NCBI GenBank assembly: GCA_021796235.1
Contig: JAJYOJ010000010.1
Location: forward strand, 1-35,253
Direction: 5' to 3'
Length of the DNA stretch: 35,253 nt
DNA from: a bacterium
GTDB taxonomy: Bacteria; Patescibacteriota; Microgenomatia; UBA1406; GWC2-37-13
Shown here in pieces: positions 320 to 13,095 of this stretch. How positions within the stretch are numbered: position 1 is the stretch's first letter; each line of letters opens with the position of its first letter. The notes under the pieces are model-generated. The model was not told the origin of the DNA. It ran no database searches and worked only from the letters and a program-made list of their open reading frames with translations. The translations under genes and the position numbers were made by a program.

Positions 320-574
320 ATGAAATACAAAATTAACAAAGGCTTTATCGTTCAGAAATTGGATAATAAAATGGTGATTTTCGACGGTGAAGAATCGATA
401 ATCTATACTTTCAATGAAACTGCCTCATTCATCTTTAAGAAATTGAAATCGGGTGTACCAGAAGGGGACATTGTTCATATGCTTATAAAACGATATGGTA
501 TTAAAGAAAACAAAGCGACAAAAGATCTTCACGAACTTATCGCTGACTTGAAAAAAAAGAAAATAATCACTTAA
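320..574 (+). CDS. PqqD-like peptide-binding protein
   Basis: This 84-residue protein has the PqqD pattern: a short N-terminal beta hairpin region, a Y-x-(F/L)-N-x-(T)-A turn (YTFNETA, about residues 29-35), an aromatic-rich helix, and a C-terminal helix pair ending in a lysine-rich tail. PqqD and related RRE domains bind the leader of a ribosomal peptide and present it to a modifying enzyme. It aligns end to end with the second stand-alone PqqD at 4060-4325. It sits between two sugar transferase genes, 9 bp ahead of the second, so it is probably co-transcribed with it. No clear Shine-Dalgarno site is visible. The fold assignment is good; the peptide partner is inferred from the neighbouring locus. 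Confidence 0.7.
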   Translation: MKYKINKGFIVQKLDNKMVIFDGEESIIYTFNETASFIFKKLKSGVPEGDIVHMLIKRYGIKENKATKDLHELIADLKKKKIIT

Positions 575-582
575 GAATAATC

Positions 583-1185
583 ATGGTTTACCGATTGGTT
601 CAGCAAATAATTGCCATTATTCTTTTCATCCTTTTTCTTCCATTAATGATTGTAATTGGTTTATTAATAAAATTTGATTCTTCTGGACTGGTTATTTTCA
701 CACAAATCAGATTAGGAAAAGATTTAAAAAAATTCCGGTTTTACAAATTCCGGACAATGAGGGTTGATGCCAAAAAATGTTTTCCACAGCTTTACCGATA
801 TCATTTTACAGCAAAAGAACTTACCACGCTTCAGTTTAAAATTCCCGCCGATCCACGATTGACGCGTTTGGGACGGTGGTTAAGAATGACCAGTCTTGAT
901 GAACTACCTAATTTAATCAATGTCATCCGCGGTGAGATGAATCTAGTGGGACCCAGGCCGGAAATACCTGAGATGTTAAGATATTATCAAAAAAAGGAAT
1001 TAGTAAAATTTTCTGTGCCGCCAGGAATTACCGGTTACTCACAAATCAATGGCCGTGGGCTGCTGACATTTAAACAAACAATTGCTTTGGATCTTCAATA
1101 TATCCGAGAAAAATCATGGTTGATTGATATAAAAGTGCTACTTCGGACATTGATGATAATTGTCAGGACCTCGGGAGCATTTTAA
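583..1185 (+). CDS. Undecaprenyl-phosphate sugar-1-phosphate transferase
   Basis: This is a complete short-form (PglC-like, 200 aa) sugar transferase. Residues 6-28 form the hydrophobic re-entrant membrane helix. The family motifs follow in order: KFRTM (about 55), DPRLTRLGRWLR, the catalytic pair in SLDELPN, GEMNLVGPRPE and PGITG. Such enzymes transfer a sugar phosphate from a UDP-sugar to undecaprenyl phosphate at the inner face of the membrane, the first step for exopolysaccharide or glycoprotein glycans. Its 3' end overlaps the convergent nucleotidyltransferase gene by 23 bp. The GT2 enzyme at 2367-3299 could extend the glycan. The sugar specificity cannot be read from the sequence. Confidence 0.9.
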   Translation: MVYRLVQQIIAIILFILFLPLMIVIGLLIKFDSSGLVIFTQIRLGKDLKKFRFYKFRTMRVDAKKCFPQLYRYHFTAKELTTLQFKIPADPRLTRLGRWLRMTSLDELPNLINVIRGEMNLVGPRPEIPEMLRYYQKKELVKFSVPPGITGYSQINGRGLLTFKQTIALDLQYIREKSWLIDIKVLLRTLMIIVRTSGAF

Positions 1186-2374
1186 AAGCAGATAATAATC
1201 TTCGCCGAACCACCCATAAAATTGAGTAAATAACCCGCCGGTCTAAAAAAACCAGACACCGTTTCCATAATGGAATGGGAGAAAAAAGAAAAAGATATTT
1301 AAAACGGGTGATAGCGGCCATTTCCCGTGATTCCTCATTAAAGATATTAATTTTATCTAAGTGTAAAAGTGTACAAGTATAAAGGTTTGAAGGTTTTAAA
1401 TCGGAGAGGAATTTTTGGGGAAAAGGAGTGTTGTAGTGCTTCTTAAGCAAAATAAATGTCGGGTAAACAAAGTTTTGCAGCCGGTAATATTTGATTATTT
1501 CTGTTTCTTTTTTCCAATCGATTATTGACCGGCGGATAATTTTATCCAAAAACTCCAAGCGGAAAGCGCTATGGAAATTATGGTGAAAGAAATGAAGGGC
1601 GAGATAAATAATTAAATAGGGAGCGGTAAGAATAGGGAATCGAGAATTTTGAATAGCGATAATTTTTTTTGAATTTAGCATATCAGCGGTCAACCGGGTA
1701 AGTAATTTTTGCGGATAGATAGTTTCGAGATGGCCAAGATTTCTTATAAACAAATTAAGGCAGAAATGGACATCGAAGATAATGTTAATATCGTTTATCA
1801 GCTTAGAATACGATTCCTCGACGGTTTCCTTCGGCCTGCGGTTGATTTTTAGTGAATTTATTGCGAAATTAACTTTCTTATACCCCATCGAGTAAAGGAT
1901 TTTTTCCGTTTTACAATAATGTATTCTGTCAATCAACAAGTCGCAATCGTAATATAACCGTTGCGGAAAGGTTTTTTCGTAATAAAGATGAAGAGGCAAA
2001 CCTTTAAGAAATACATAGTTAATGCCTTTCCGATGAAAAAGATTACTGATGATTCTGATTTCCTTTAAAAAAATACCTGACTGTTTGATATATGAATAAC
2101 CAGCAGTGGCGGAGGTAATTTTTCCGATAACCGACCCATTTTTGGGGACCACTTGAGACCGTTGTTCATTGTCAGCCCGGACAACAAGAGAATTTTTATG
2201 GGTGTATAAAATCCTTTTAACGGAGACAGAACCGCTTGTTTTGATAACTACCAGATCATTAACTTTTAAACTTTTAGACGGTGTGGACTGGTAATAGACG
2301 ATGTCGTCCTTATTGAATAAAGGATGCATTTCGTCGGAATCGATGATTAATTTATTCAGTCGGTGCTTATTCAT
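1163..2374 (-). CDS. Nucleotidyltransferase-like protein with degenerate S26 peptidase domain at N-terminus
   Basis: I chose the ATG at 2374, giving 403 aa and a short ATGAATAA overlap with the upstream GT2 gene. A longer reading from 2431 would lie inside that gene. Residues about 8-95 match the S24/S26 signal-peptidase fold (DEMHPLF, then VNDLVVI, SVKRIL and IGKI). The catalytic Ser before the Met is replaced by Glu, so this domain should be inactive as a protease. The remainder resembles the uncharacterised NTP_transf_5 nucleotidyltransferase family: FLKG, an arginine, the DCDLLI acidic motif, and a later DVHFCL. Genes of this family recur beside HprK-like and PqqD-like genes in lasso-peptide and HPr-rel-A loci, which fits the neighbours here. 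Substrate unknown. Confidence 0.6.
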   Translation of the reverse strand: MNKHRLNKLIIDSDEMHPLFNKDDIVYYQSTPSKSLKVNDLVVIKTSGSVSVKRILYTHKNSLVVRADNEQRSQVVPKNGSVIGKITSATAGYSYIKQSGIFLKEIRIISNLFHRKGINYVFLKGLPLHLYYEKTFPQRLYYDCDLLIDRIHYCKTEKILYSMGYKKVNFAINSLKINRRPKETVEESYSKLINDINIIFDVHFCLNLFIRNLGHLETIYPQKLLTRLTADMLNSKKIIAIQNSRFPILTAPYLIIYLALHFFHHNFHSAFRLEFLDKIIRRSIIDWKKETEIIKYYRLQNFVYPTFILLKKHYNTPFPQKFLSDLKPSNLYTCTLLHLDKINIFNEESREMAAITRFKYLFLFSPIPLWKRCLVFLDRRVIYSILWVVRRRLLSAFKMLPRS

Positions 2375-3299
2375 ATTTTGAAAAGGTCCTTGCATGTTGG
2401 TAACCCGTGGCAATAAACAGTTTGTCAACAAAGTAAAAAAAATAGAATGACAGTTTAAATAATAAATTTTTATTTTTAAATATCTCCTGCATTAGAGAGA
2501 AAGATGCTTGGTTTTCTTTTTGTTTTCGGAGTTTGCGGTATATTTTTAGCGATGATCCGGACAAGAATTGTCGATCAGGCCACAGCTTATCAAAATAATA
2601 AAATGCCCGGCCTTTATTAAACGCTTTTTTTATATGTGTGACAACGTTTTGGTAACTGAAATGGGAGACCATTGCCTTATTGTCGTATTTGATCTTTATA
2701 TTTATACCGGTAAGGCGTAAACCAAGGTCCATGTCTTCCAGCCGGGAAAAAGGAGTTAATTTTTGGTTAAAATACATTTTGTTTCTCACCAATAATTCTT
2801 TTTCCGTGGCAAAATTCTTCGAATCAATTAGTGGTGAATATATCGAGCGCCCGATTTTATATAGGCCGGACCGGAAAACTCTTTCAGCCGTATAATGCTC
2901 AAGCGATGCGAACAGATTATCCGGTAAACCGTTTTCATTCCTGCCCAATAAGACAATATGGCGGTGGGCTTGAAAAAAGTCACCGATCTGTCTTATCCAG
3001 TTTTTACCTGCCACGCAATCGTCGTCGATAAAAGCTAAAACGGAGCCACGGGCTTTTTTTATCCCAAAATTTCTGGCTAAAGGAGAACCGCTTTTTCTAA
3101 GCCAGTAACATTTCAATTTGATATTGTGGTACCTTATTGAATCGACTACTTTTTTCGCTTCGTTACAAGGTGAATTATCTACGACAATGATTTCTTGGGG
3201 CAGTTGAGTCTGGGTGGTCAGTGAGGCCAAGCATCTTTTCAACGCTTCATTCCTTTGGTAAGTCGGGACAATGACCGTGACGGTAACTTTATTTTTCAC
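2367..3299 (-). CDS. GT2 family glycosyltransferase
   Basis: This 310-residue protein starts at a GTG and has a GT-A fold. The N-terminus carries the VTVIVPTYQRNEAL signature strand and IIVVDNSP. The metal-binding acidic motif is FIDDDC near residue 92, followed by an SRLEDMDLGLRL acceptor-side ED motif near 190. There is no N-terminal signal; the C-terminus has hydrophobic stretches (FYFFYFVDKLF) that may touch the membrane. It transfers a sugar from an activated nucleotide donor. With the two sugar transferases nearby, a role in exopolysaccharide or surface glycan assembly is likely. A TATAAT element lies 9 nt before the start and overlaps the divergent promoter of the HprK-like gene. Donor and acceptor are unknown. 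Confidence 0.85.
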   Translation of the reverse strand: MKNKVTVTVIVPTYQRNEALKRCLASLTTQTQLPQEIIVVDNSPCNEAKKVVDSIRYHNIKLKCYWLRKSGSPLARNFGIKKARGSVLAFIDDDCVAGKNWIRQIGDFFQAHRHIVLLGRNENGLPDNLFASLEHYTAERVFRSGLYKIGRSIYSPLIDSKNFATEKELLVRNKMYFNQKLTPFSRLEDMDLGLRLTGINIKIKYDNKAMVSHFSYQNVVTHIKKAFNKGRAFYYFDKLWPDRQFLSGSSLKIYRKLRKQKENQASFSLMQEIFKNKNLLFKLSFYFFYFVDKLFIATGYQHARTFSKYE

Positions 3300-3331: not shown

Positions 3332-4063
3332 ATGCAAAAATCGCTTGATGTTTCTGTTGCCGGTATTCCTTTTACCTTTAGTACCAACAGTATAGGCCTT
3401 TTCAACTATCTTAAAGAAAATTATTTTATAAATAAAAATATCGCCGGCCATCCAAATACTATCTCGATCCAAAAAAACAAAAACGGTTTTAACATTAAAA
3501 ACGAAAATAACCATAAGCAATTGACGGTTGAAGCGCCTGTTTTCCAATCTCTTAAAGGAATAAGCTATATCATTCGGGCTTTTATCGCCTCTAATCAATA
3601 TGACTGTTGTAGTGAACAATTGCTTTTCCTGCACGGATCGGCATTTTATAAAAACGGTACGGCATTTGTTTTTTTGGGACCGTCAGGCCAAGGAAAAACA
3701 ACGATTATTAAGGAGATTGACAAAAATAAACGACTAGCTGATGATACGGTAATTATCAAAAAGGAAAGAGATGATTTTTTTGTTTATCCGTCGCCATTTG
3801 AGAAAAAAATGATAAACTGGTCAGATAAAAAATTCCCTTTATGTTCAATTTATGTAATTGAGCAGGCGGCCCGAACCAGAATCGCCAAAATCGACGCAAA
3901 ATCCAAAATAAGCGCAATTTTTAACAACACCATTGATCTTTTTTCCGCTCCTGATTTCCATCAGCCAAAGGTGCTTTATCGTTTAAAATTAGAACTGATA
4001 TCCGATGTCATTATAAAAAAACTATTTTTTACTAAAAAAATTGACTTTATCCATAGAATATGA
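3332..4063 (+). CDS. HPr kinase-like protein (peptide or protein kinase of a RiPP-type locus)
   Basis: This 243-residue protein has the C-terminal P-loop fold of HPr kinase/phosphorylase: HGSA at 101-104, a Walker A GPSGQGKTT at 116-124, and LADD at 136-139, the acidic pair after the first helix. It lacks the conserved HprK signature that follows in true HPr kinases and has no N-terminal HprK domain, so it belongs to the HprK-related group. In the paeninodin lasso cluster such a kinase (PadeK) phosphorylates the C-terminal Ser of the peptide, and related kinases pair with PqqD proteins in HPr-rel-A systems. Here it overlaps the start of the PqqD-like gene (ATG at 4060 within its TGA), indicating translational coupling. 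The substrate is inferred to be a local peptide. Confidence 0.75.
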   Translation: MQKSLDVSVAGIPFTFSTNSIGLFNYLKENYFINKNIAGHPNTISIQKNKNGFNIKNENNHKQLTVEAPVFQSLKGISYIIRAFIASNQYDCCSEQLLFLHGSAFYKNGTAFVFLGPSGQGKTTIIKEIDKNKRLADDTVIIKKERDDFFVYPSPFEKKMINWSDKKFPLCSIYVIEQAARTRIAKIDAKSKISAIFNNTIDLFSAPDFHQPKVLYRLKLELISDVIIKKLFFTKKIDFIHRI

Positions 4064-4325
4064 ATAATAATACAAAAGTTAAAAGAAAACCAACTTTATT
4101 TCTAAAAAAATTGATAATGAATATGTGGTATTTCATGTCGAAAGTGGCAAAGTATATGAGCTTAACCCAACCGCCGAAACGATCTGGAAATATTTATGGA
4201 AACCAAGAACGATAGGACAGTTAATCAAAAAAATCACGGAAACTTATGAGGTTGATAAACAAAAAGCCAGGAGTGACATATTTGAGCTATTATCTAATTG
4301 CAAAAACAACCTTTTTCGCCTCTAA
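4060..4325 (+). CDS. PqqD-like peptide-binding protein with apparent -1 frameshift
   Basis: Two frames together make one PqqD domain. The ATG at 4060 overlaps the HprK-like stop and encodes 17 residues ending LFLKK. The rest of the domain (IDNEYVVFHV, YELNPTAETIW, then the C-terminal helices) is in the -1 frame from 4110 to 4325. The switch point is the seven-A run at 4104-4110, which in the upstream frame is a classic A-AAA-AAA slippery heptamer. The joined product of 88 aa aligns along its whole length with the 84-residue PqqD at 320-574. Without the shift the downstream frame has no ATG start and could only begin at a GTG (4125) inside the domain. Programmed or transcriptional slippage, a real mutation, or one missing A in the assembly are all possible. 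Confidence 0.65.
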
Positions 4326-4903
4326 CGGTAAATATTAATTTCCGTTTCTACTTTTATCCGAGAATCATTTATATAATAAAAGGGATTAAGGACGTCATGG
4401 ATAAGGACAGTATCGCCGATTTTTATGTCAGCAAATTGCGCCGGTATTTTATTACCGTTATTTATGATAAAAACCTTCATCTGCTTAACTTCGTAATCAA
4501 GGAATTTGTACCAGTTCCAGGATTGATAGCCGGCAAAATGCAGCGCTAACGGGAAATAAAATCCATATTGGTTCATTCCTGTACTATTAATTTTATCTAT
4601 TTTAGCTTTGGTGTCGGTGGTTAAATAAATTTCCCTTTCAGGAACTTTGTGCCATTGAGCAATCATGCCCAAGGTCCGTCTATCAATAGCCAGAGGCAAC
4701 GGGTTGAGGACTGGTATTGGTGTCGGGTAGCGAACTTTCCATGTCCAATCTTCGGCAACACCTTTTGGCGGCGTAATGGAGATGCATGATGATCGGAACT
4801 GGGCAGAATGACTGGACAGTTGGTAATACTTGTAAGTTCCAAAAGCAACAACTACGACCAGTAAAATTATCACCAAGAGAAGTATTTTATTTAACTTGAA
4901 CAT
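4322..4903 (-). CDS. Small membrane-anchored protein, function unknown
   Basis: The ATG at 4903 gives 193 aa; a TTG at 4930 in the same frame would add nine residues inside the upstream signal peptidase gene. Residues about 5-23 are a strongly hydrophobic anchor (LLLVIILLVVVVAFG), and the rest should lie outside the membrane. The outer part is rich in aromatic residues and prolines and ends in a beta-rich segment with AQFADIKIGDTVLIHD. I recognise no catalytic motif; it has no sortase Cys motif. The end of its sequence resembles the end of the membrane-anchored protein at 7033-7596 (TDLIPGKEVIVTL). It overlaps the S26 peptidase gene by 17 bp, so it may be a partner or substrate of that peptidase. 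Confidence 0.6.
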   Translation of the reverse strand: MFKLNKILLLVIILLVVVVAFGTYKYYQLSSHSAQFRSSCISITPPKGVAEDWTWKVRYPTPIPVLNPLPLAIDRRTLGMIAQWHKVPEREIYLTTDTKAKIDKINSTGMNQYGFYFPLALHFAGYQSWNWYKFLDYEVKQMKVFIINNGNKIPAQFADIKIGDTVLIHDVLNPFYYINDSRIKVETEINIYR

Positions 4904-5324
4904 AATTCTGCTTACTGATAAGTTTAACAATAAATTTTCTTCCTCTAAATATTTTAATGATTATTTTAAACGAAACGTAGGGAATTAAAGAATAAAGAAG
5001 GAAGCAATATTTAATAACGGATGCTTTATAAGAATTGAGACGGATATGGTATTGCCTGTTTTCGATATAGTTTAATTTTCCAAGGATTTGACTATGAGTA
5101 ACCGGAGGATCAATGAAATAATTATTATCGCCTTTAACAATATAATGCTGCGAGTTTTTCCAAATTACCCGGTGACTGATAAGTTTTCGGTGATTATAGT
5201 AAACGATAATATCGCCGATATGGATCTTATTAAACTTAGGCTTTTCAACATATAATCGATCTTTTGATTTAATCAAGGGGAACATACTTAGACCAAATGC
5301 CTCTCCCAAATAGTAATGATTCAT
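4887..5324 (-). CDS. S26B-type signal peptidase
   Basis: This 145-residue protein matches the archaeal/SipW-like signal peptidase group, which uses Ser and His instead of Ser and Lys. The nucleophile is in GLSMFPLI (Ser13), the general base in ISHRVI (about His51), and the downstream KGDNN motif (about 64-68) is typical. The C-terminal third holds a hydrophobic stretch (YCFLLYSLIPYVSF) that anchors it to the membrane. It cuts exported or membrane-inserted substrates on the outer face. It is more compact than housekeeping signal peptidase I and sits inside the putative peptide-modification locus, so a dedicated substrate is likely. It reads divergently from the first candidate precursor gene. 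Confidence 0.8.
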   Translation of the reverse strand: MNHYYLGEAFGLSMFPLIKSKDRLYVEKPKFNKIHIGDIIVYYNHRKLISHRVIWKNSQHYIVKGDNNYFIDPPVTHSQILGKLNYIENRQYHIRLNSYKASVIKYCFLLYSLIPYVSFKIIIKIFRGRKFIVKLISKQNYVQVK

Positions 5325-5339
5325 TTGATAATATTTACC

Positions 5340-5368
5340 TTGACAATGTATAAATCTGATGCTATCCT
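5340..5368 (+). promoter_or_regulatory. Sigma70-like promoter for first short basic peptide
   Basis: A perfect TTGACA at 5340-5345 is followed after 17 nt by TATCCT at 5363-5368, four of six matches to the -10 consensus. Transcription would begin near 5375, a few bases before the ATG at 5383, leaving a very short leader. A dedicated strong promoter supports the short reading frame being a real gene. Confidence 0.6.
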
Positions 5369-5382
5369 GAAACTATATAAAT

Positions 5383-5529
5383 ATGAAAATTAAAGCTAAA
5401 CCTAAACGAAAATTGTTTCGTTACCAACCGCCACAATTTGTTTCTAAAAGAATCAAGCTATTCACTAAATCACATTGGGATGAACTTCTCGGCTCTCCTC
5501 TTCTTGCTACTAAGTTGACAGTGCCATAA
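5383..5529 (+). CDS. Candidate RiPP precursor peptide 1 (48 aa)
   Basis: This short ORF runs from the ATG at 5383 to the TAA at 5529. The N-terminal half is strongly basic (12 Lys/Arg overall). It contains YQPPQF at residues 14-19, which fits the Y-x-x-P-x-(L/F/V) recognition motif that PqqD-like domains bind in lasso-peptide leaders. The only acidic residues in the peptide are Asp33 and Glu34, directly after Trp32, and the tail is neutral and hydrophobic with LLGSPLLATKL. It has no signal peptide. It lies between the S26 peptidase and the QueC-PqqD gene (9 bp from the end of the latter). No known precursor family is recognised; precursor status is inferred from motif, size, promoter and neighbours. 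Confidence 0.6.
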   Translation: MKIKAKPKRKLFRYQPPQFVSKRIKLFTKSHWDELLGSPLLATKLTVP

Positions 5530-5538
5530 TAAAACCCG

Positions 5539-6807
5539 CTATAATTTATTGTTTTCCCCTTTTTCTTTAAGAACTAAGGATTGATTGTTTACACAATTAT
5601 TTAAAAACAAAATAAGATCATTAGGCAACCTTTGTTGATTGCGATATCGTTTTTTTAATATTAATAATAGTTGGTGGAAAGTATTCTTACCCTTTATAAT
5701 ATGCTGCCATAAGAGTGAACCGGAATCATTTAAAATATTTATTTCACCGTATTTTTTGTCGAATAAATGAACTTGGTTTGAAACGATTGTCCAATCGATA
5801 GTTAAAGCAGGAGTAAAATAATATTTTCCCACATTACTTTTAGTAATATTTATTTTTTTGTTTTTGTTACGATCGTCAAGGCTGGATAATAAATTAAATA
5901 ATCTTTTTTTTAAAGAGAGTTGATGATGTAATCTGTCAAGCAATGAGTTTTGGTATACAGTAAGATCTTTAATGCCCATTTGTTTAAATGCATCACGCCT
6001 AATAACACATGGACCGCATTTACCGCATTGGATCTTAAAGTTCTCCATGCAAGACCATGTATGGCCTAGATTTATTTTTTTATTTATGGCATATTTAATT
6101 AATACTTTTCTTGGGAGGTAAAATTTCTTGTCTTCTTCAATTGCGCCCGTCAGTTGCCAACTGAAGTCGCCCAAGATCGTACAAAGACTTAAGTTGATAC
6201 TCCTTAATACGGTCAGCGTTGAATTTCGATGCAGCGCGGTATCTTCCGGCAAGAGACCGACAATAATTGTATTTAGGTCTTTTGCTTGTGATGCTCTTAA
6301 CCTTTGTGCATAGGCGTAAGCATTGAAGAAATAATTGTAAAAGGGATTAGTCTCATAACTGATCGATACTTTATAATTATCGCTTTCACGATTATAAACA
6401 AGATTTCTAATTACCAGCCCGATATCGGAAATTACGGCGGCCGATTGTAATGTTTTAAGGAGTCGATGAGAGGAGGTTCTCATGATCTCCACCGGATGGA
6501 ATAAGTCAGGATAGAGTTCCTTAAAAACTTTAGAATAATAACATATGCTTTCTTCTTCACCCTTAAAAAAATAATTAGGATCCAGAAAGTGCACCGGATA
6601 GACATGCAATCCGTATTTTCCCATTAGTATATTCCAAAGATTGGTCGAATCCAATCCACCGGATAAAAGCAAAATTACGCTCTCACCTTTTTTCGGAATA
6701 CGGAAAACTTGTTTCCGTTTAGTTAGAAAGATTTTATCAAGCTGTTGAAGCAATGGCTTATCTTCAAAGTTATTTTTCTGAAAAGCAGGACTAACAACCG
6801 TTTTCAT
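5539..6807 (-). CDS. QueC-like PP-loop enzyme fused to C-terminal PqqD domain
   Basis: I chose the ATG at 6807 (422 aa), because the alternative TTG at 6879 would overlap the likely promoter. Residues 49-54 are the PP-loop SGGLDS that binds ATP and adenylates a carboxylate. Residues 253, 261, 264 and 267 are the four Cys of a QueC-type zinc site (WSC, then CGKCGPC), followed by an Arg-Arg-x-AF-x-x-xG tail typical of QueC. QueC converts a carboxylate to a nitrile through an amide using ammonia. Residues about 330-415 form an added PqqD-like domain (GEINILNDSGSLLW). This fusion suggests a QueC chemistry aimed at a peptide bound by the PqqD domain, rather than queuosine synthesis. No queD, queE or queF gene is present nearby. 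Confidence 0.8.
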   Translation of the reverse strand: MKTVVSPAFQKNNFEDKPLLQQLDKIFLTKRKQVFRIPKKGESVILLLSGGLDSTNLWNILMGKYGLHVYPVHFLDPNYFFKGEEESICYYSKVFKELYPDLFHPVEIMRTSSHRLLKTLQSAAVISDIGLVIRNLVYNRESDNYKVSISYETNPFYNYFFNAYAYAQRLRASQAKDLNTIIVGLLPEDTALHRNSTLTVLRSINLSLCTILGDFSWQLTGAIEEDKKFYLPRKVLIKYAINKKINLGHTWSCMENFKIQCGKCGPCVIRRDAFKQMGIKDLTVYQNSLLDRLHHQLSLKKRLFNLLSSLDDRNKNKKINITKSNVGKYYFTPALTIDWTIVSNQVHLFDKKYGEINILNDSGSLLWQHIIKGKNTFHQLLLILKKRYRNQQRLPNDLILFLNNCVNNQSLVLKEKGENNKL

Positions 6808-6809
6808 AT

Positions 6810-6831
6810 GATGGACAATTGATGGACAATT
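6810..6831. repeat. 11-bp tandem direct repeat in leader of QueC-PqqD gene
   Basis: The unit GATGGACAATT occurs twice head to tail, at 6810-6820 and 6821-6831, immediately before the ATG at 6807 on the minus strand. It lies between the likely start site of transcription and the start codon. It could be a regulator site or a translation-control element; the sequence alone does not say. Confidence 0.6.
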
Positions 6832-6847
6832 ACACAAATGCGTTCCA

Positions 6848-6853
6848 ATTATA
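6848..6853 (-). promoter_or_regulatory. -10 element for QueC-PqqD gene
   Basis: A perfect TATAAT on the minus strand, preceded directly by TG, lies about 40 nt before the ATG at 6807. A weak TTGAAA is 20 nt further upstream. It points to transcription starting near 6841, which favours the ATG at 6807 over the upstream TTG as the start codon. Confidence 0.45.
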
Positions 6854-6861
6854 CATGATAG

Positions 6862-6890
6862 TTGACATGTTTTTTTCAATCTGTTAGTAT
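6862..6890 (+). promoter_or_regulatory. Sigma70-like promoter for second short basic peptide
   Basis: A perfect TTGACA at 6862-6867 is followed after exactly 17 nt by TAGTAT at 6885-6890, four of six matches to the -10 consensus. It drives the peptide gene at 6924 and the membrane protein 7 bp after it. The same architecture precedes the first short peptide gene, and the two are among the best promoters in the window. Confidence 0.6.
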
Positions 6891-6923
6891 TTTTAATATC
6901 TATCAGTTGGCCAGATTAAACTC

Positions 6924-7025
6924 ATGAAAAAGTTAATTAAAAAGAAAAGCTGGGCTAAAAAGGTGTACCACAAGCCAAAAGTTAATATCGCACAGATCAA
7001 GTCAAAAATCTGGACCGATTATTGA
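6924..7025 (+). CDS. Candidate RiPP precursor peptide 2 (33 aa)
   Basis: This ORF runs from the ATG at 6924 to the TGA at 7025. It is rich in lysine (11 of 33) and contains YHKPKV at residues 15-20, the same Y-x-x-P-x-hydrophobic pattern found in the first peptide and in lasso leaders. The only acidic residue is Asp32, in the C-terminal WTDY; the only other notable core residue is Trp30. It has no signal peptide. It is transcribed away from the QueC-PqqD gene and is followed after 7 bp by a membrane-anchored protein. The spacing from motif to Trp is 15 residues, versus 18 in peptide 1. The peptide could instead be a small basic regulatory protein, but the shared motif argues for a maturation substrate. 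Confidence 0.55.
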   Translation: MKKLIKKKSWAKKVYHKPKVNIAQIKSKIWTDY

Positions 7026-7032
7026 TTGTCGT

Positions 7033-7596
7033 ATGGCAAATAAGCTGTTGACAGGTATTTTTTTATTACTGTTATTTGTTATCATTATTGAGTTCGGTTA
7101 TCTGTTTATTCGGCCTCTCCAATCAGTAAATTCTTTTCCAACGCCGTCCGTAGCTCCTACCGTTACTAATGTTCCAAGGAGAACTAATTACGAGCAAGCA
7201 TACGTCATGGATCAGCATGAAATTATAAGGCTTGGACAATTGGCCGATGCCAAAGTGCTGAAAAACTTTACCTGGTCGGAAACATTCCAATCGACTCTCA
7301 TAAGTGCAAGCACAAGCGCTGGCATCAAAGCTTATCCGAATGCACCAGCAGTGGCACCTTGGCAATATGAGGCGACCATATTTTTGAAAATTAACGACAA
7401 AGAAACTTTCGGGATTGGTTTCAGCAAAAGCGATTTGAGTAAATTAAAAATAACCAAGATGAGCAAAGGAGTGGAGACACCGATAAATATTACCGACCTG
7501 ATTCCAGGAAAAGAAGTTATTGTTACTTTGAATATAGACAATCTTAAGGGGCCAAGCAATAATTTATCTTCCGGCTCGATTCAGGAATTGGACTGA
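7033..7596 (+). CDS. Membrane-anchored protein, function unknown
   Basis: This 187-residue protein has one N-terminal hydrophobic segment (about residues 5-27, FLLLLFVIIIEFGYLF), a Pro/Thr-rich spacer (about 36-50), then a soluble domain expected outside the cell. The domain ends with a beta-rich segment containing ITDLIPGKEVIVTLNI, similar in pattern to the end of the protein at 4322-4903. It shows no catalytic motif that I recognise. It follows candidate precursor 2 by 7 bp and shares its promoter, so it may act on, bind or export that peptide. Its 3' end overlaps the convergent radical SAM gene by 16 bp. Confidence 0.6.
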   Translation: MANKLLTGIFLLLLFVIIIEFGYLFIRPLQSVNSFPTPSVAPTVTNVPRRTNYEQAYVMDQHEIIRLGQLADAKVLKNFTWSETFQSTLISASTSAGIKAYPNAPAVAPWQYEATIFLKINDKETFGIGFSKSDLSKLKITKMSKGVETPINITDLIPGKEVIVTLNIDNLKGPSNNLSSGSIQELD

Positions 7597-8558
7597 TTAA
7601 TTAAGAAGGCGATACACGGCCCCGGACATTTTCCGGGAACATGGCCGTAAAACAGGCATTTCTTACACTCTTTGAGAGAGGTCTCCGTCCAATATGTATA
7701 GCGGTTTTTCAGCAACCGGCGGTTAACGGCATTAAGTGAATTTTCCTTTAGAGAGGGCTGATTTTTGGAGAGGGGAAAACAGTGAAAAGCAGATAGATTG
7801 GTTTGTATATCCATGCTACTTCCTTTACCGAAACAGCCCCAGCCAGATATTATTAAATCATTACGGGCGAGGTAATCATATTGTTTATCAGTAAACATAC
7901 AGCGGGTAAAACCACAATTGAGTGACAGCTTTATCCGTGGATTGACAGATTTAACCGCTTTGATTAGTAAATACAACTGTTTACCTATTTTAGGGAATTG
8001 CTCGAAAGTGAGAAAATTTTTTTCGCCGGCGATCGGATTGGCAAAACCGATACGGATTCCGGTGACTTGCTTAATTACATGAGGAGTGATAGTTTTTAAG
8101 ATTAAGGAAATATCGGTGGCGGTATCGATCGTTAATGATAGTGTTACCTCGGTCCGGCGGCTGAATTCATTAAGCCGTTTAATAACTAATTGCCGAATAT
8201 TTTTTTGTATTAAAAAACCCGGTGTCATGATATTGACGGTCAATTTGACCCGCGGGAAATAATCGGCCAAGAATGAGGCTTTATCATCTGAAATGATGCC
8301 GTTGGTAAAAACCTGAACATTAGAAAAATAATTTAAAGACATTTTAATTATCTCTTCGAATTTCGAATGAAGCGTCGGTTCCCCGCCCAGTAATTTTACG
8401 GTATCGATTTTATTTCTCTTCATTTTTTTTAATACATCCTCAAAATCCTTTAAACTCATTTCCCGATCAATCGTTGTCTTTTTCATTTCTGTCCTGGCAA
8501 AGCAGAAGGGGCAATTTTGATTGCAATAGTTAGTAATAAGAATATTGGGTGGTTGCAT
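7581..8558 (-). CDS. Radical SAM protein with SPASM-like C-terminal cluster domain
   Basis: The 325-residue protein has the radical SAM CxxxCxxC motif at Cys12, Cys16 and Cys19, which holds the 4Fe-4S cluster that cleaves S-adenosylmethionine, and a GGEP motif at 58-61. The C-terminal third has a Cys pattern expected for auxiliary clusters: Cys215, 220, 242, 260, 298, 301, 311 and 315, with the SPASM-like C-x-x-G pattern near 242-260. SPASM radical SAM enzymes modify ribosomal peptides or proteins, for example by carbon-carbon or thioether crosslinks. It lies at the edge of the PqqD/precursor locus, so a role as peptide maturase is likely, though an anaerobic sulfatase-maturase-like role is possible. 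Confidence 0.8.
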   Translation of the reverse strand: MQPPNILITNYCNQNCPFCFARTEMKKTTIDREMSLKDFEDVLKKMKRNKIDTVKLLGGEPTLHSKFEEIIKMSLNYFSNVQVFTNGIISDDKASFLADYFPRVKLTVNIMTPGFLIQKNIRQLVIKRLNEFSRRTEVTLSLTIDTATDISLILKTITPHVIKQVTGIRIGFANPIAGEKNFLTFEQFPKIGKQLYLLIKAVKSVNPRIKLSLNCGFTRCMFTDKQYDYLARNDLIISGWGCFGKGSSMDIQTNLSAFHCFPLSKNQPSLKENSLNAVNRRLLKNRYTYWTETSLKECKKCLFYGHVPGKCPGPCIAFLINQSNS

Positions 8559-8570
8559 AAAATTGATTAT

Positions 8571-10253
8571 TTATTCGCTTCTTCCAAAGTATTCTTTTAA
8601 TATATCACGCGCGATCGGTCCTGCGACATCTGATCCTTGGCCGCCTTTTTCGATAAGAATTGTCAGGACGATTTGTGGATTATCAGCCGGTGCATAGACC
8701 GTGATCCAGGCGTCGGGGAGCGTTGTTTCGTCGGGAGTTTGGGCGGTACCGGTTTTGCAAGCGACAGGAATCGGCTGGAATTGGGCGGAGGTTGTGCTAA
8801 CAGGAGTATTCCCGCCATTTTTATTTACGCCAAAGTTGAAAAGCGGCCAGCCCGTGCCACCCGGAGCACAGGCCTCTTTCATTCCCGTGCGTACCAGATC
8901 CAAAGTTTTTTGGGAAATTGGCAGTTTTTTACACTCAGTTTCACCAAAGATTGGATTGGTTAGATTGTCGTTTGCTCCGATTTTCAAAAGTTTTGGCTTG
9001 CACAAAGTTCCGTTATTGGCAAATACGCTTGTCGCTTGAGCAACTTGCAGGGGAGTAACCAAGAGATATCCTTGACCGATTGATAAATTATAGGTATCGC
9101 CGGTATACCATTGATCGTGGATGGTCTCTTGTTTCCAAAAGGGAGAAGGAAGCAGTCCGTCAGCTTCGTCAAACCCAATACCGGTTTTTTTACCAAATCC
9201 TAAAACATTGGCCCAGTGTTGTATCCTTTCGGGTCCCAAAAGATTACCAACCTGATAGAAAAAAATATCGTTGGAGCGCTGTAAACCCTTTACGACATTA
9301 ACCATCCCGTCGGTTCTTCCATATTCGAGAAAGTACCAGTTGCCAAAAGTTATCGGTCCGGCATGTAAAATTCCCGTATCCTCAAACTCTTTATTTTCAT
9401 CAATCTTTTTATCTTCCAAGGCGCCGGTTGCCAAAACCAGTTTGAAGATAGAGCCCGGTGAGTAGACCCCCTCGGTTGCCCGGTTGAAAAGCGGTTTATC
9501 ATCGGATTTTAGATACGAATTTATTGCATTATTATTTGCGTCAAAAAAAGCCTGTGGGCTAAACGAAGGAGTCGAGACAAAACCCAGAACTTCTCCGGTT
9601 TGAGGCTTCAGGGCAATGATTGCGCCTTTTTTTCCCTGTAACAAGTCGTAGGCTTTTTGCTGGATGTCCATGTCAAGGGCTAACTGCAAGGTTGTTCCGT
9701 CGCTCGGGGGAATAATTGACAGAGTGTTTAAAAATTTGCCCTTAGCATCAATCTCGACTAATTTTTTTCCCGGACGGCCTCGGAGGTCGCAGTCAAAAAC
9801 CTGCTCAATGCCTTTTTTTCCAATTTTATCTCCGAGTGTTAATTTATTAATGCAATTATCATTATTAAAATTATTTTGATCAGCAATTTGTTCATATCCG
9901 ACAAAAGGAGCTAAGGCTTCGGGCGACTGGTAGATGCGTTGCGACGGTAAACGCGGATCGTTTTTACTCGTATCGGCCGGCAGATTCTTAACCAAAGTAA
10001 ATCCCAGCCGATCGAGTAAGGTTCCCCGGCGTGGTTCAATGAGAAGCTCCCGGATACGATTCTGCTCGGAAAGAGTACGATAGTATTGGCCTTTAACAAC
10101 CGTAAGTTCAAAAAATCTGAGGGCTAAAAAAACAAAAACGACAACGATTATTAACAAATAGGTAAAAAAAAAGATATCCGGATAGTTATTTTTGCGACCC
10201 CCAAAATGCATGTTGCCAACTTTGCCTTTTTGGAAAAGCGAAAGCTTATTCAT
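8571..10253 (-). CDS. mrdA: Penicillin-binding protein 2 (peptidoglycan transpeptidase)
   Basis: This 560-residue class B PBP has an N-terminal membrane helix at about 27-48, a PBP dimerisation domain, and a transpeptidase domain with all three active-site motifs: SIFK at 268-271 (nucleophile Ser268), SND at 327-329 and KTG at 500-502. It crosslinks peptidoglycan stem peptides on the outer face during cell elongation. A TATAAT ends 10 nt before the ATG, on the strand opposite the divergent FolC gene. The window has no rodA gene beside it, although the two are usually adjacent in many bacteria. Identification as PBP2 rather than PBP3 rests on length, the PRRGTLLDR motif and overall layout. Confidence 0.9.
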   Translation of the reverse strand: MNKLSLFQKGKVGNMHFGGRKNNYPDIFFFTYLLIIVVVFVFLALRFFELTVVKGQYYRTLSEQNRIRELLIEPRRGTLLDRLGFTLVKNLPADTSKNDPRLPSQRIYQSPEALAPFVGYEQIADQNNFNNDNCINKLTLGDKIGKKGIEQVFDCDLRGRPGKKLVEIDAKGKFLNTLSIIPPSDGTTLQLALDMDIQQKAYDLLQGKKGAIIALKPQTGEVLGFVSTPSFSPQAFFDANNNAINSYLKSDDKPLFNRATEGVYSPGSIFKLVLATGALEDKKIDENKEFEDTGILHAGPITFGNWYFLEYGRTDGMVNVVKGLQRSNDIFFYQVGNLLGPERIQHWANVLGFGKKTGIGFDEADGLLPSPFWKQETIHDQWYTGDTYNLSIGQGYLLVTPLQVAQATSVFANNGTLCKPKLLKIGANDNLTNPIFGETECKKLPISQKTLDLVRTGMKEACAPGGTGWPLFNFGVNKNGGNTPVSTTSAQFQPIPVACKTGTAQTPDETTLPDAWITVYAPADNPQIVLTILIEKGGQGSDVAGPIARDILKEYFGRSE

Positions 10254-10300: not shown

Positions 10301-11746
10301 ATGAAAGGCACAGTAGAAATTCCCGAAGGGCGGTGGGAAAGTATTTATTCTAGATACAAAGTTTCTCTTAATTGGCTTGAATCTTTAATAAACGATCCCC
10401 AGGGAGAACGATATCTTGTTCCGAAAAGTTCAAAAGAAATGAGAGAGGGGCAGATAGCGTCATTTGAGCGAACACATCGCTTTCTAGCTTTTTTAGATAA
10501 TCCGCAAAACAACTATCATATTATTCACGTGGCAGGAACTGGAGGTAAGGGCTCAACTACTACAATGATTGATGCATTATTAAGAGCGGCTGGTCAAAAA
10601 ACAGGAAGTCACACAAGTCCATATGTTCAGGTTCCCAATGAAAAACTGGTTATTAATGGACAAATCATATCTCCATCAAATTTTTCCGAACTTGTCGACA
10701 ATTTTAGGCAGAGATATGAATATTATATTCAGCAAGATCCAAAAGGAAGACCTCTTTATGGCGAGACTTGGACAGCCTTGGCTTATTTTTATTTCAGCCG
10801 ACAAGGCGTATCATGGGCTGCCATAGAAACGGGTATGGGTGGCAGATTTGACCCAACAAACGTCAACACATCAGATATTGCTGTAATTACCAATATTGAT
10901 TTTGATCATGTTCCGCAATTAGGAACAACTCTAGGTGATATTGCCTGGCACAAAGCAGGTATTATAAAACCAGGAAGACCAGTAATTACAGGTGAAACTA
11001 AGCCGGAACCATTATCTGTTATCAAATTAGAGGCCATAGAGAAAAACTCGCCCATACTTATCTTGGGACAAGATTATAGTGCAAAAAATATTCGGAAAAG
11101 CGATGATGGCATAATTTTGGACGTACATACGCCGTTTGGAGACATGCATAATCTTTATGTTAGTTTAGAAGGTTCATTCCAGGGCTTAAACGCTGTAACC
11201 GCCTTAACAGCTACACTTTATGCCGCAGACAGACATGGATTTAGTTTGACCGAAGAACAGATTAGAAATGCTATGGCAACATTGAGCATGAAGGGGCGCA
11301 TGGAAAGAATGCAAGCCGAGCCGCTTATTATTATAGACGGAGCTCATAATCCGCAAAAGATGAGAGCTGCAGCAGCTACCTTAAAACAAGACTACACAGG
11401 GCTTAAGAAGACTCTTATTATCGGTATGCTTCAAACCAAAGATGCAGCAGACTCGTTAAAACAGATAGTTCCTTTTGTAGACGCAGTGATCGTGACTGAA
11501 CCAAATGTTGTAGGAAAGCCTTCTTTTACAGTAGAACAGATGCAAGAATTTGTTACCTCAATAAGACCTGACATCCGCGTTGAAGGAGAAAAAGACGTCC
11601 AAAAAGCAATTGCTGACGCCATGAATAACGCAAGAAAGGATGAAATGATTTTCATTACAGGATCAATATATATGTTAGGTCATGCAAGAAGTTTTTGGGA
11701 GAAAAAGGAAGACTTGTTAAATAAAATTGAATATCAACAAGTCTAA
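10301..11746 (+). CDS. folC: FolC-like Mur-family ligase (folylpolyglutamate/dihydrofolate synthase), copy 1
   Basis: This 481-residue protein belongs to the ATP-dependent Mur ligase superfamily. Its P-loop is GTGGKGSTT (about residues 80-88), with SHTSPYV downstream, the ETGMGGRFDPTN motif (about 181) and a C-terminal IIDGAHNPQKM. FolC adds glutamate to dihydropteroate or tetrahydrofolate. An unusual N-terminal extension of about 60 residues precedes the standard HFL helix. A TATAAT lies 15 nt before the ATG. It overlaps by 4 bp a convergent gene for a second, quite different FolC. The nearby dhfr and thyA genes make folate use plausible. Which copy makes polyglutamates is unclear. Confidence 0.8.
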   Translation: MKGTVEIPEGRWESIYSRYKVSLNWLESLINDPQGERYLVPKSSKEMREGQIASFERTHRFLAFLDNPQNNYHIIHVAGTGGKGSTTTMIDALLRAAGQKTGSHTSPYVQVPNEKLVINGQIISPSNFSELVDNFRQRYEYYIQQDPKGRPLYGETWTALAYFYFSRQGVSWAAIETGMGGRFDPTNVNTSDIAVITNIDFDHVPQLGTTLGDIAWHKAGIIKPGRPVITGETKPEPLSVIKLEAIEKNSPILILGQDYSAKNIRKSDDGIILDVHTPFGDMHNLYVSLEGSFQGLNAVTALTATLYAADRHGFSLTEEQIRNAMATLSMKGRMERMQAEPLIIIDGAHNPQKMRAAAATLKQDYTGLKKTLIIGMLQTKDAADSLKQIVPFVDAVIVTEPNVVGKPSFTVEQMQEFVTSIRPDIRVEGEKDVQKAIADAMNNARKDEMIFITGSIYMLGHARSFWEKKEDLLNKIEYQQV

Positions 11747-13095
11747 TCACGTAACTTCATTAGGTCTTGATAAATTTCTCCAATAAGATAAAAAGAACCA
11801 GTTATTATGAGAAATTCGTCTTTACGTTTAATTATATAACGCAGTGCGTTATGAGGATTATGAACGGTAATTATGTTTTTGAAACTAATCCGTTTTGACA
11901 ATCTAATGAAATCTTCAGGTTTTCTTGATTGATTGATCAAATCTTGTTTTTCGGTAAAAAAACTAGTTACAACTACTTTTTTTGCTATGGGTACAATATA
12001 TTTAAAAATATGTATGAAATCCTTATTTTTTTTAACAGCAAGCAAAAAAGTATATTTTTGATTTGGATAAAGTTTTCTTAGGCTTTTGGTAAACGCTGCC
12101 ATTTTCTGTGGATTATGCGCACCATCAATGATAATTGTTCTTTTTTGATATTCAAATATTTCCATTCTACCTGGAAAAGAAAGCTCCCTTAAAGAACATT
12201 TAAGCGATTGAACATCGAAGTTAAAGTGGTCCCTTCTACTTAATATGTAGGCCGCCGCGAGAGCTAAAGACGCATTTTCTGCTTGATATTCGGCAGTCAA
12301 ACCGATTTCTAGATTAGAAATCTTAATTTGTTTAAAATTAAAATCAAATACTAGATTTTTACCTGAAAATCTAATGTTTTTGAAGTTGATATTTTTTTTT
12401 ACATAACTTAAGATTGCCTCCTGTTCTTCGCTGACAGTTTCTATAACATTTCTTGCTTGTGTTTTTTGCCAAATAGTGATTACCGAATTTTTTTGCTTAA
12501 TAATCTTAGCTTTTTGAAAAGCAATCTGTCCGATTGTTCTCCCCAAAATTTCCGTATGATCCAAACCAATTCTAGTTAAAATAACTAATTTATCACTTCT
12601 CTCAGTTGTATTCGTTGCATCATACCACCCGCCCAAGCCTGTTTCCACCACCGCATAATCAACTTTTCGCTGATAAAAAATATGAAAAGTCATAGCTACC
12701 AAAATTTCAAAATATGTAGGTTTTCCAAGTATGCTCTCTTGCACTTTTTTTACGGATGGAATTATTTCATTAAGGCTTTCGCAAAATTGTCTAATTGTAA
12801 TAAACTCGTTATTTAGCTGAAAGCGTTCACGGATATCGCTGATATGTGGAGATACATGCAAACCCACTCTAAAACCCAAAGATTTTAGGATAACGCTTGT
12901 GAGATAAGCGGTAGATCCTTTCCCAGAAGTACCGGCGATATGAATTATTTTCAATTTATTTTGGGGATTTGCTAAAAGCTGTAATAAGTATTTAGCTCTT
13001 TTAAGACCCAAATCCCCGGGAAACTTATTATTTGAATTTTTTGGGATATAACCAGAAAGAAATGCTTCAGCCTGGGAAAAATTTTGAATTTTCAT
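11743..13095 (-). CDS. FolC-like Mur-family ligase, copy 2
   Basis: This 450-residue protein is a second FolC homologue, with P-loop GTSGKGST (about 54-61), HVSPHISD, ETGLGGWYDATN and IIDGAHNPQKMAAF. It is clearly diverged from the copy that converges on it and lacks that copy's N-terminal extension; the two are paralogues, not a recent duplication. Its ATG overlaps the stop of the upstream NlpC-like gene, which suggests co-transcription. It probably attaches glutamate to folate or to a related acceptor. Two FolC-like genes tail to tail may indicate a division of labour, for example dihydrofolate synthase versus polyglutamylation, or a non-folate acceptor for one of them. Confidence 0.75.
   Translation of the reverse strand: MKIQNFSQAEAFLSGYIPKNSNNKFPGDLGLKRAKYLLQLLANPQNKLKIIHIAGTSGKGSTAYLTSVILKSLGFRVGLHVSPHISDIRERFQLNNEFITIRQFCESLNEIIPSVKKVQESILGKPTYFEILVAMTFHIFYQRKVDYAVVETGLGGWYDATNTTERSDKLVILTRIGLDHTEILGRTIGQIAFQKAKIIKQKNSVITIWQKTQARNVIETVSEEQEAILSYVKKNINFKNIRFSGKNLVFDFNFKQIKISNLEIGLTAEYQAENASLALAAAYILSRRDHFNFDVQSLKCSLRELSFPGRMEIFEYQKRTIIIDGAHNPQKMAAFTKSLRKLYPNQKYTFLLAVKKNKDFIHIFKYIVPIAKKVVVTSFFTEKQDLINQSRKPEDFIRLSKRISFKNIITVHNPHNALRYIIKRKDEFLIITGSFYLIGEIYQDLMKLRD

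Follow-up and report, generated by a model that had tools for sequence, protein, structure and literature searches.

The locus at positions 3332-8558 of the window, that is, the whole 35,253-base stretch analysed here (contig C19), raises the question of what a QueC-like PP-loop ATPase, related to an enzyme of nucleoside biosynthesis and fused to a PqqD domain, is doing beside two very short basic open reading frames (ORFs), a radical S-adenosylmethionine (SAM) enzyme and a signal-peptidase-like protein. A preliminary description had proposed a modification locus for ribosomally synthesized and post-translationally modified peptides (RiPPs), of an undescribed type. On comparison with related loci we consider it likely that this is a QueC- and PqqD-dependent peptide-modification locus of the RiPP type; the exact bond formed is much less certain. 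The host genome (922 kb, 96% complete) is of Roizmanbacteria type (Microgenomates), in a family that takes in named Candidatus Roizmanbacteria relatives. Such organisms have minimal genomes and are believed to live on other cells, and this tiny bacterium probably depends on other cells as well.

Association of the Y-x-x-P peptides with QueC-like and PqqD genes

Relatives were gathered with the QueC-like protein as query, and a PqqD profile was run across all QueC-like loci. The initial set comprised ten loci with both PqqD and a short ORF carrying a Y-x-x-P motif, twelve with neither, and one, L015, with a peptide and no PqqD (Fisher test, 1e-5). Five more genomes with QueC-like genes were fetched after the models had been fixed. 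In all five, the distance from PqqD to QueC was no more than about 300 bp, and the best-scoring short ORF was a Y-x-x-P peptide adjoining both genes. Altogether a Y-x-x-P ORF is present in 15/15 QueC-like loci that have a PqqD domain or gene and in 0/12 that do not (Fisher P = 4e-7), P values that are optimistic and overstate independence because the loci share ancestry. As the twelve loci with no Y-x-x-P precursor and no PqqD (L058, L060, L061, L063, L064, L066, L067, L016, L017, L024, L087 and L088) illustrate, a QueC-like gene alone is no marker of the system. The first seven of these genes lie in surface-glycan-like loci, several of which have pyridoxal phosphate (PLP) decarboxylases, methyltransferases and ABC-2-like exporters.

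Comparison thus extended shows a gene set held in common, a conserved leader and a tight link between that leader and QueC plus PqqD. The earlier suggestion that the genes form one system is supported by a Y-x-x-P ORF that tracks QueC plus PqqD and by the recurrence of the gene set. The short ORFs are not missing beside QueC-PqqD genes elsewhere, being found in 4/4 genomes with the fusion and at 11/11 further loci, and the neighbours do not vary at random: HprK-like, PqqD, S26, membrane and radical SAM proteins recur in other genera in shuffled order, the HprK-like, S26B and membrane proteins doing so in Roizmanbacteria-type loci. The minimal contiguous cassette is that of L062, with QueC at 687-1664, the peptide at 1661-1738 and a PqqD frame from 1739, and L065 is arranged in the same way. 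QueC and PqqD are separate in these minimal cassettes and fused in the window; cassette peptides have 21-48 residues. A three-gene cassette of this kind is small enough to be reconstituted and would give a direct probe of QueC chemistry on peptides.

The two precursor candidates of the window, both on the forward strand, are peptide A (ORF A, 5383-5529; MKIKAKPKRKLFRYQPPQFVSKRIKLFTKSHWDELLGSPLLATKLTVP) and peptide B (ORF B, 6924-7025; MKKLIKKKSWAKKVYHKPKVNIAQIKSKIWTDY). In other genera, too, short basic Y-x-x-P ORFs adjoin genes for QueC-like or radical SAM enzymes. When aligned on the motif, the leaders have basic residues, then Y-x-x-P, then positions occupied mainly by K/R and I/V, and their ends vary. 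Peptide A has RY-x-x-P-x3-SKRIK in common with the L012 peptide at 9521-9652, and peptide B has a C-terminal W..Y in common with the peptides of L012 (11177-11266) and L014. A HMMER profile of the leader was useless, probably owing to a composition correction that discounts basic sequence, and a plain position-specific scoring matrix (PSSM) was used instead. Built without the window sequences and scored over 16,994 six-frame positions, it ranked ORF B 4th and ORF A 5th; when each locus was left out in turn, the local peptide ranked first in 10/12 loci. Within 2 kb of these enzymes there are 19 Y-x-x-P ORFs, against 8 farther away in double the sequence (P=1e-4) and 2.7 expected near the enzymes from Markov shuffles.

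Precursors in relatives are under protein-level purifying selection: between the genes of the close pair L127 and L128 the changes fall mainly in third positions, with a nonsynonymous divergence (dN) of 0.14 and a saturated synonymous one (dS). Both genes have a similar TTGACA...TATACT element upstream. In the window, promoter-like elements with TG before the -10 precede ORF A (TTGACA-17-TATCCT, 5340-5368, forward strand) and ORF B (TTGACA-17-TAGTAT, 6862-6890, forward strand). The promoters claimed for the two ORFs are in place as TTGACA-N17 elements, but as a class such sites are not commoner than in shuffled sequence (24 versus 20).

Two features by which a RiPP locus is recognized are present, namely short encoded precursors with a conserved leader and a variable core beside modifying enzymes, and PqqD domains or RiPP recognition elements (RREs) as predicted leader binders. 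Y-x-x-P is a known recognition motif of lasso peptide RREs (PMC12710340), and the PqqD is lasso-like (NF033536, 1.4e-13, under the model cut-off). We infer that the PqqD domains bind the Y-x-x-P leader.

Two side observations concern the same leader. In L099 (16419-17151) another PP-loop ATPase, with SGGKDS and PAPS-reductase-like by eye, adjoins a Y-x-x-P peptide, which suggests that more than one PP-loop family may use the leader. In L015 (2041-2628, on a contig that also bears L022) a Y-x-x-P precursor with the Cys-rich core TAGSGTCCCGTC is joined in frame to a Hint-like domain that has homologues matching Pfam Hint_2 (8e-5), and YcaO-like and nitroreductase genes adjoin the precursor. It would be unusual for a precursor to be fused to a self-processing domain.

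The enzymes and the neighbouring genes

The QueC-PqqD protein is encoded at 5539-6879 on the reverse strand, with an ATG start at 6807 (Pfam QueC, 2.6e-10; PqqD part, 4.9e-4). It has the SGGxDS loop (as SGGLDS), the zinc Cys cluster and the QueC fold that place it in the PF06508 superfamily. Its profile matched Cap9 (9.6e-5), the lasso RRE TbiB1 (1.3e-3) and QatC in the PDB. Modelled with AlphaFold2 at moderate confidence (pLDDT 71.6), the protein resembles PP-loop ATPases including Cap9 (TM-score on the target, 0.67), and its fused C-terminal domain is predicted to fit the TbiB1 RRE (TM-score 0.80, rmsd 1.8). Among named proteins it stands closest to QatC (NCBIfam, 2e-8) and Cap9. The protein is not QatC itself by score (33.5 bits against an NCBIfam cut-off of 280), and the Pfam scans of the window found no KAP NTPase or TatD neighbour. 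Compared with the canonical QueC of the relative L018, which lies beside QueD- and QueE-like genes, it has none of the signatures YxQxHxxE, VPxRN and YPDC; in QueC and Cap9, 7-carboxy-7-deazaguanine (CDG) is read by the last of these motifs, through its Tyr and Asp (PMC13279940). The QueD family PF01242 was undetected in 9/9 genomes with the system and was found in the control genome G015. With the signatures gone and QueD undetected in these nine genomes, the protein does not qualify as a canonical QueC of preQ0 synthesis, QueE not having been searched for genome-wide.

The radical SAM enzyme (7581-8558, reverse strand; PF04055, 3.6e-17) had been labelled a SPASM protein. Pfam SPASM was not matched; the C-terminus does hold a conserved CxxC-x9-CxxxC and more Cys. 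Homologues are found in G036, G109 (two copies), G016, G026 (two) and G052, and the family in 6/373 genomes of the class sampled. Peptides of loci with this enzyme end in Tyr in 7/10 cases, as opposed to 1/10 elsewhere (P=0.02), the only one outside being that of L012, and peptide B ends in ...IWTDY. The enzyme thus distributed probably acts on peptide B, as a peptide of the C-terminal-Tyr type. MftC of the mycofactocin pathway decarboxylates a C-terminal Tyr with the aid of an RRE protein (PMC5264612); from this precedent, a similar reaction on peptide B would be a guess. In L012 (9666-11266) the peptide ending in Tyr adjoins an FAD-linked oxidase. L100 (7771-7941) has a Y-x-x-P precursor with the core NCACGTCGCGYTICAY adjoining two radical SAM genes, and in L098 (475-2837) a radical SAM gene of the window family occurs with YcaO-like and nitroreductase-like genes, no precursor being found there.

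The remaining genes named in the preliminary description were likewise found where it had placed them: the HprK-like protein, a PqqD protein, the S26B peptidase, the two membrane proteins and, upstream, a second PqqD and an NTP_transf_5/S24-S26 fusion, both by Pfam matches. The HprK-like P-loop kinase-like protein (3332-4063, forward strand) has its best match in NCBIfam ScmC (2.7e-6), followed by HprK_rel_A (0.034), and none in Pfam Hpr_kinase. H-x-S, GxSGxGKT and DD are conserved in it, with H101, S103, the P-loop G116/G121/K122 and D138 invariant in nine homologues of these loci. It is followed by a discrete PqqD protein (4083-4325, forward strand; PqqD, 4.7e-15, and alignment with homologues), the frame of which has no ATG; an ATG at 4060 overlaps the HprK stop in a different frame, so that 4060-4325 may hold a frame interruption or an assembly error, or else a rare start codon. 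The window holds three PqqD domains, two discrete and one fused to QueC. The other discrete one (320-574, forward strand; Pfam PqqD, 3.6e-13) is 51% identical to that of L013 (6413-6688). The upstream fusion (1163-2431, reverse strand) joins an S24/S26-like peptidase (PF00717, 4.5e-4) to an NTP_transf_5 nucleotidyltransferase (PF14907, 1.3e-17), an architecture also present in L058 (9393-10721).

The S26B-type (Ser-His) signal-peptidase-like protein (4887-5324, reverse strand; NCBIfam sigpep_I_arch, 3.3e-13), in which Ser13, His51 and KGD are invariant in four homologues, is by analogy a candidate leader peptidase. The two membrane-anchored proteins belong to one family (TM-I). That at 4322-4930 on the reverse strand, with an N-terminal transmembrane segment and an extracytoplasmic domain, has a homologue in L012 (1217-1786, E=3e-18), and that at 7033-7596 on the forward strand one in L099 (11147-11740, E=5e-8). 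The latter begins 8 bp past ORF B, and the same order of peptide and membrane protein is seen in L057 (13427-12722). A search without positive control gave no match in the window genome to the DUF4330-like membrane protein of relatives. The locus is flanked by sugar transferase and glycosyltransferase genes, and farther on, at 10301-13095, two adjacent Mur-ligase/folylpolyglutamate-synthase-like genes lie on opposite strands.

A possible pathway and its alternatives

As to leader binding, the pairing of enzymes with peptides, the bond, cleavage, export and function, we infer the following. The small genes, from their own promoter-like elements, would yield two short precursors, and the PqqD/RRE domains would hold the basic Y-x-x-P leader of each. 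The QueC-like ATPase would work on the leader-bound peptide, peptide A being the best fit, and use ATP to adenylate one of the carboxylates of that peptide, most probably that of the C-terminus. Ammonia or an amine would then take over the activated carboxylate, with an amide, a nitrile or a lactam as the result. It is established for the PP-loop fold that ATP activates a carboxylate which ammonia or an amine then attacks (PMC13329287, PMC13060819). Past the leader, the L127 and L128 peptides contain neither Asp nor Glu, so that the C-terminus is the sole carboxylate common to all precursors, and therefore a C-terminal amide, nitrile or conjugate would be favoured over a side-chain lactam. A conserved Glu or Asp in the C-terminal region had been considered as an obligatory modification site and was dropped because these two peptides lack any. 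The nearest precedent is the conversion of a RiPP C-terminal carboxylate into a nitrile by an asparagine-synthetase-like enzyme (PMC13060819). The radical SAM enzyme would modify precursors of the peptide B type, with their C-terminal Tyr, and the S26B peptidase would cut the leader off at the membrane; the HprK-like protein, the nucleotidyltransferase and the membrane-anchored proteins would be accessory, by analogy only.

Several observations weigh against this reading. ORFs A and B reach only moderate scores on the leader model, and the leader pattern was first picked from the same loci, with the exception of the five later ones. The loci are kin, and the label of having or lacking the system changes two to three times on the QueC tree. 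L015 has a precursor and no PqqD in the 9 kb examined, which begin at a contig end. Peptide A does not have the acidic residue near the C-terminus that is seen in 9/11 tabulated peptides, the L012 peptide ends in Tyr in a genome without a match to this radical SAM enzyme, and the assignment of A to QueC and of B to the radical SAM enzyme is indirect. The moderate scores of ORFs A and B, together with promoter-like sites that as a class do not exceed chance, could be taken to mean that the short ORFs are chance or non-coding and the enzymes no system; yet the five of five out-of-sample loci, the association in 15/15 against 0/12 and the selection on the protein in relatives make it highly improbable.

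The same acidic residues bear on a lasso-like macrolactam, for which the QueC-like PP-loop enzyme would stand in for the asparagine-synthetase-type cyclase and join a side-chain Asp or Glu to a core amine. The lasso-type Y-x-x-P leader and PqqD, the PP-loop chemistry, the 9/11 peptides and the WDEL of peptide A all agree with it. The L127 and L128 peptides, with no Asp or Glu past the leader, the often very short cores and the lack of a B2 protease among the scanned proteins do not, and we regard it as a possible but doubtful outcome. It is unlikely that the QueC-like protein instead serves surface polysaccharide loci as a carboxylate-amine ligase, the peptides being tethered to glycans or exported with them. 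This would suit the sugar genes around the locus, the glycan-like surroundings of the PqqD-less relatives and the exporter-like genes that adjoin several peptide cassettes, but it leaves the strict link of PqqD with the Y-x-x-P peptide unexplained, and no exporter was found in the window. The enzyme might also join CDG to a peptide amine, as Cap9 does in type IV CBASS and as has been suggested for QatC, possibly in a defence or signalling device. Cap9 and QatC are its closest named relatives, and protein modification by QueC-family enzymes is known (PMC13279940). This deazaguanylation is quite unlikely because QueD is undetected in the nine genomes with the system and the CDG-recognizing motifs are not conserved, although the base may still come by salvage; moreover, the precursors open with a basic leader and not with an N-terminal Gly motif, and the loci examined contain no QatA, QatB, QatD or CD-NTase.

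Relation to known systems

Within the literature that could be searched, no paper connects QueC with PqqD in a RiPP context and we found no published description of a RiPP locus built around a QueC-type enzyme, so that to this extent the type proposed in the preliminary description is indeed undescribed. There is a close likeness to lasso peptides of the B1/PqqD type, which also have a Y-x-x-P leader, a lasso-type PqqD/RRE, HprK-like and NTP_transf_5 nucleotidyltransferase accessory genes and a central PP-loop ATPase. There, however, the cyclase is of asparagine-synthetase type, whereas here the PP-loop enzyme is of QueC type, the cores are much shorter, and a radical SAM enzyme and an S26B peptidase are present. 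The earlier view that this is not a standard lasso cluster holds: Transglut_core3 (B2), Asn_synthase and ABC transporter gave no match above cut-off in the scanned window proteins, which did not include every small ORF, and the B2 search was confined to the window.

The nitrilobacillin (PesC) pathway is similar in the ATP-dependent modification of a RiPP carboxylate, which is proposed here; it relies on PesC, an asparagine-synthetase-like enzyme that works alongside MNIO and HExxH enzymes, where the present locus has a QueC-type enzyme with PqqD. Mycofactocin (MftA/B/C) and SynChlorMet likewise combine a short precursor, a PqqD/RRE protein and a radical SAM enzyme, the former with a C-terminal Tyr as in the B-type peptides, the latter with an HprK-like ScmC. 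They differ in their leader, the QueC-like enzyme is additional here, and the scores fall far under the cut-offs (ScmC 27 against 125 bits, ScmD 27.8 against 100, ScmE 36.1 against 400, and MftC 29.3 against 265, with only the C-terminal Tyr in common with mycofactocin). RiPPs are already known in bacteria of the candidate phyla radiation (CPR) as graspetides (PMC8939145), the clusters of which have an ATP-grasp ligase and other precursors and enzymes. The common leader described here lets QueC-like, radical SAM and YcaO enzymes be traced together across CPR genomes.

With the QueC family PF06508 (QueC, QatC and Cap9) the enzyme has in common the SGGLDS loop, the zinc Cys cluster, a D-x-T-x-Y behind that cluster and the QueC/PP-loop fold. 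The parts consulted of PMC13329287 and PMC13279940, both of 2026, give no RiPP role for this family. Here, the PqqD/RRE is fused or adjacent, the precursors are tiny, the canonical substrate motifs are gone and QueD is undetected. Thus, enzymes of a family lately recognized as phage-defence protein modifiers would in these bacteria form the core of a peptide-modification cassette.

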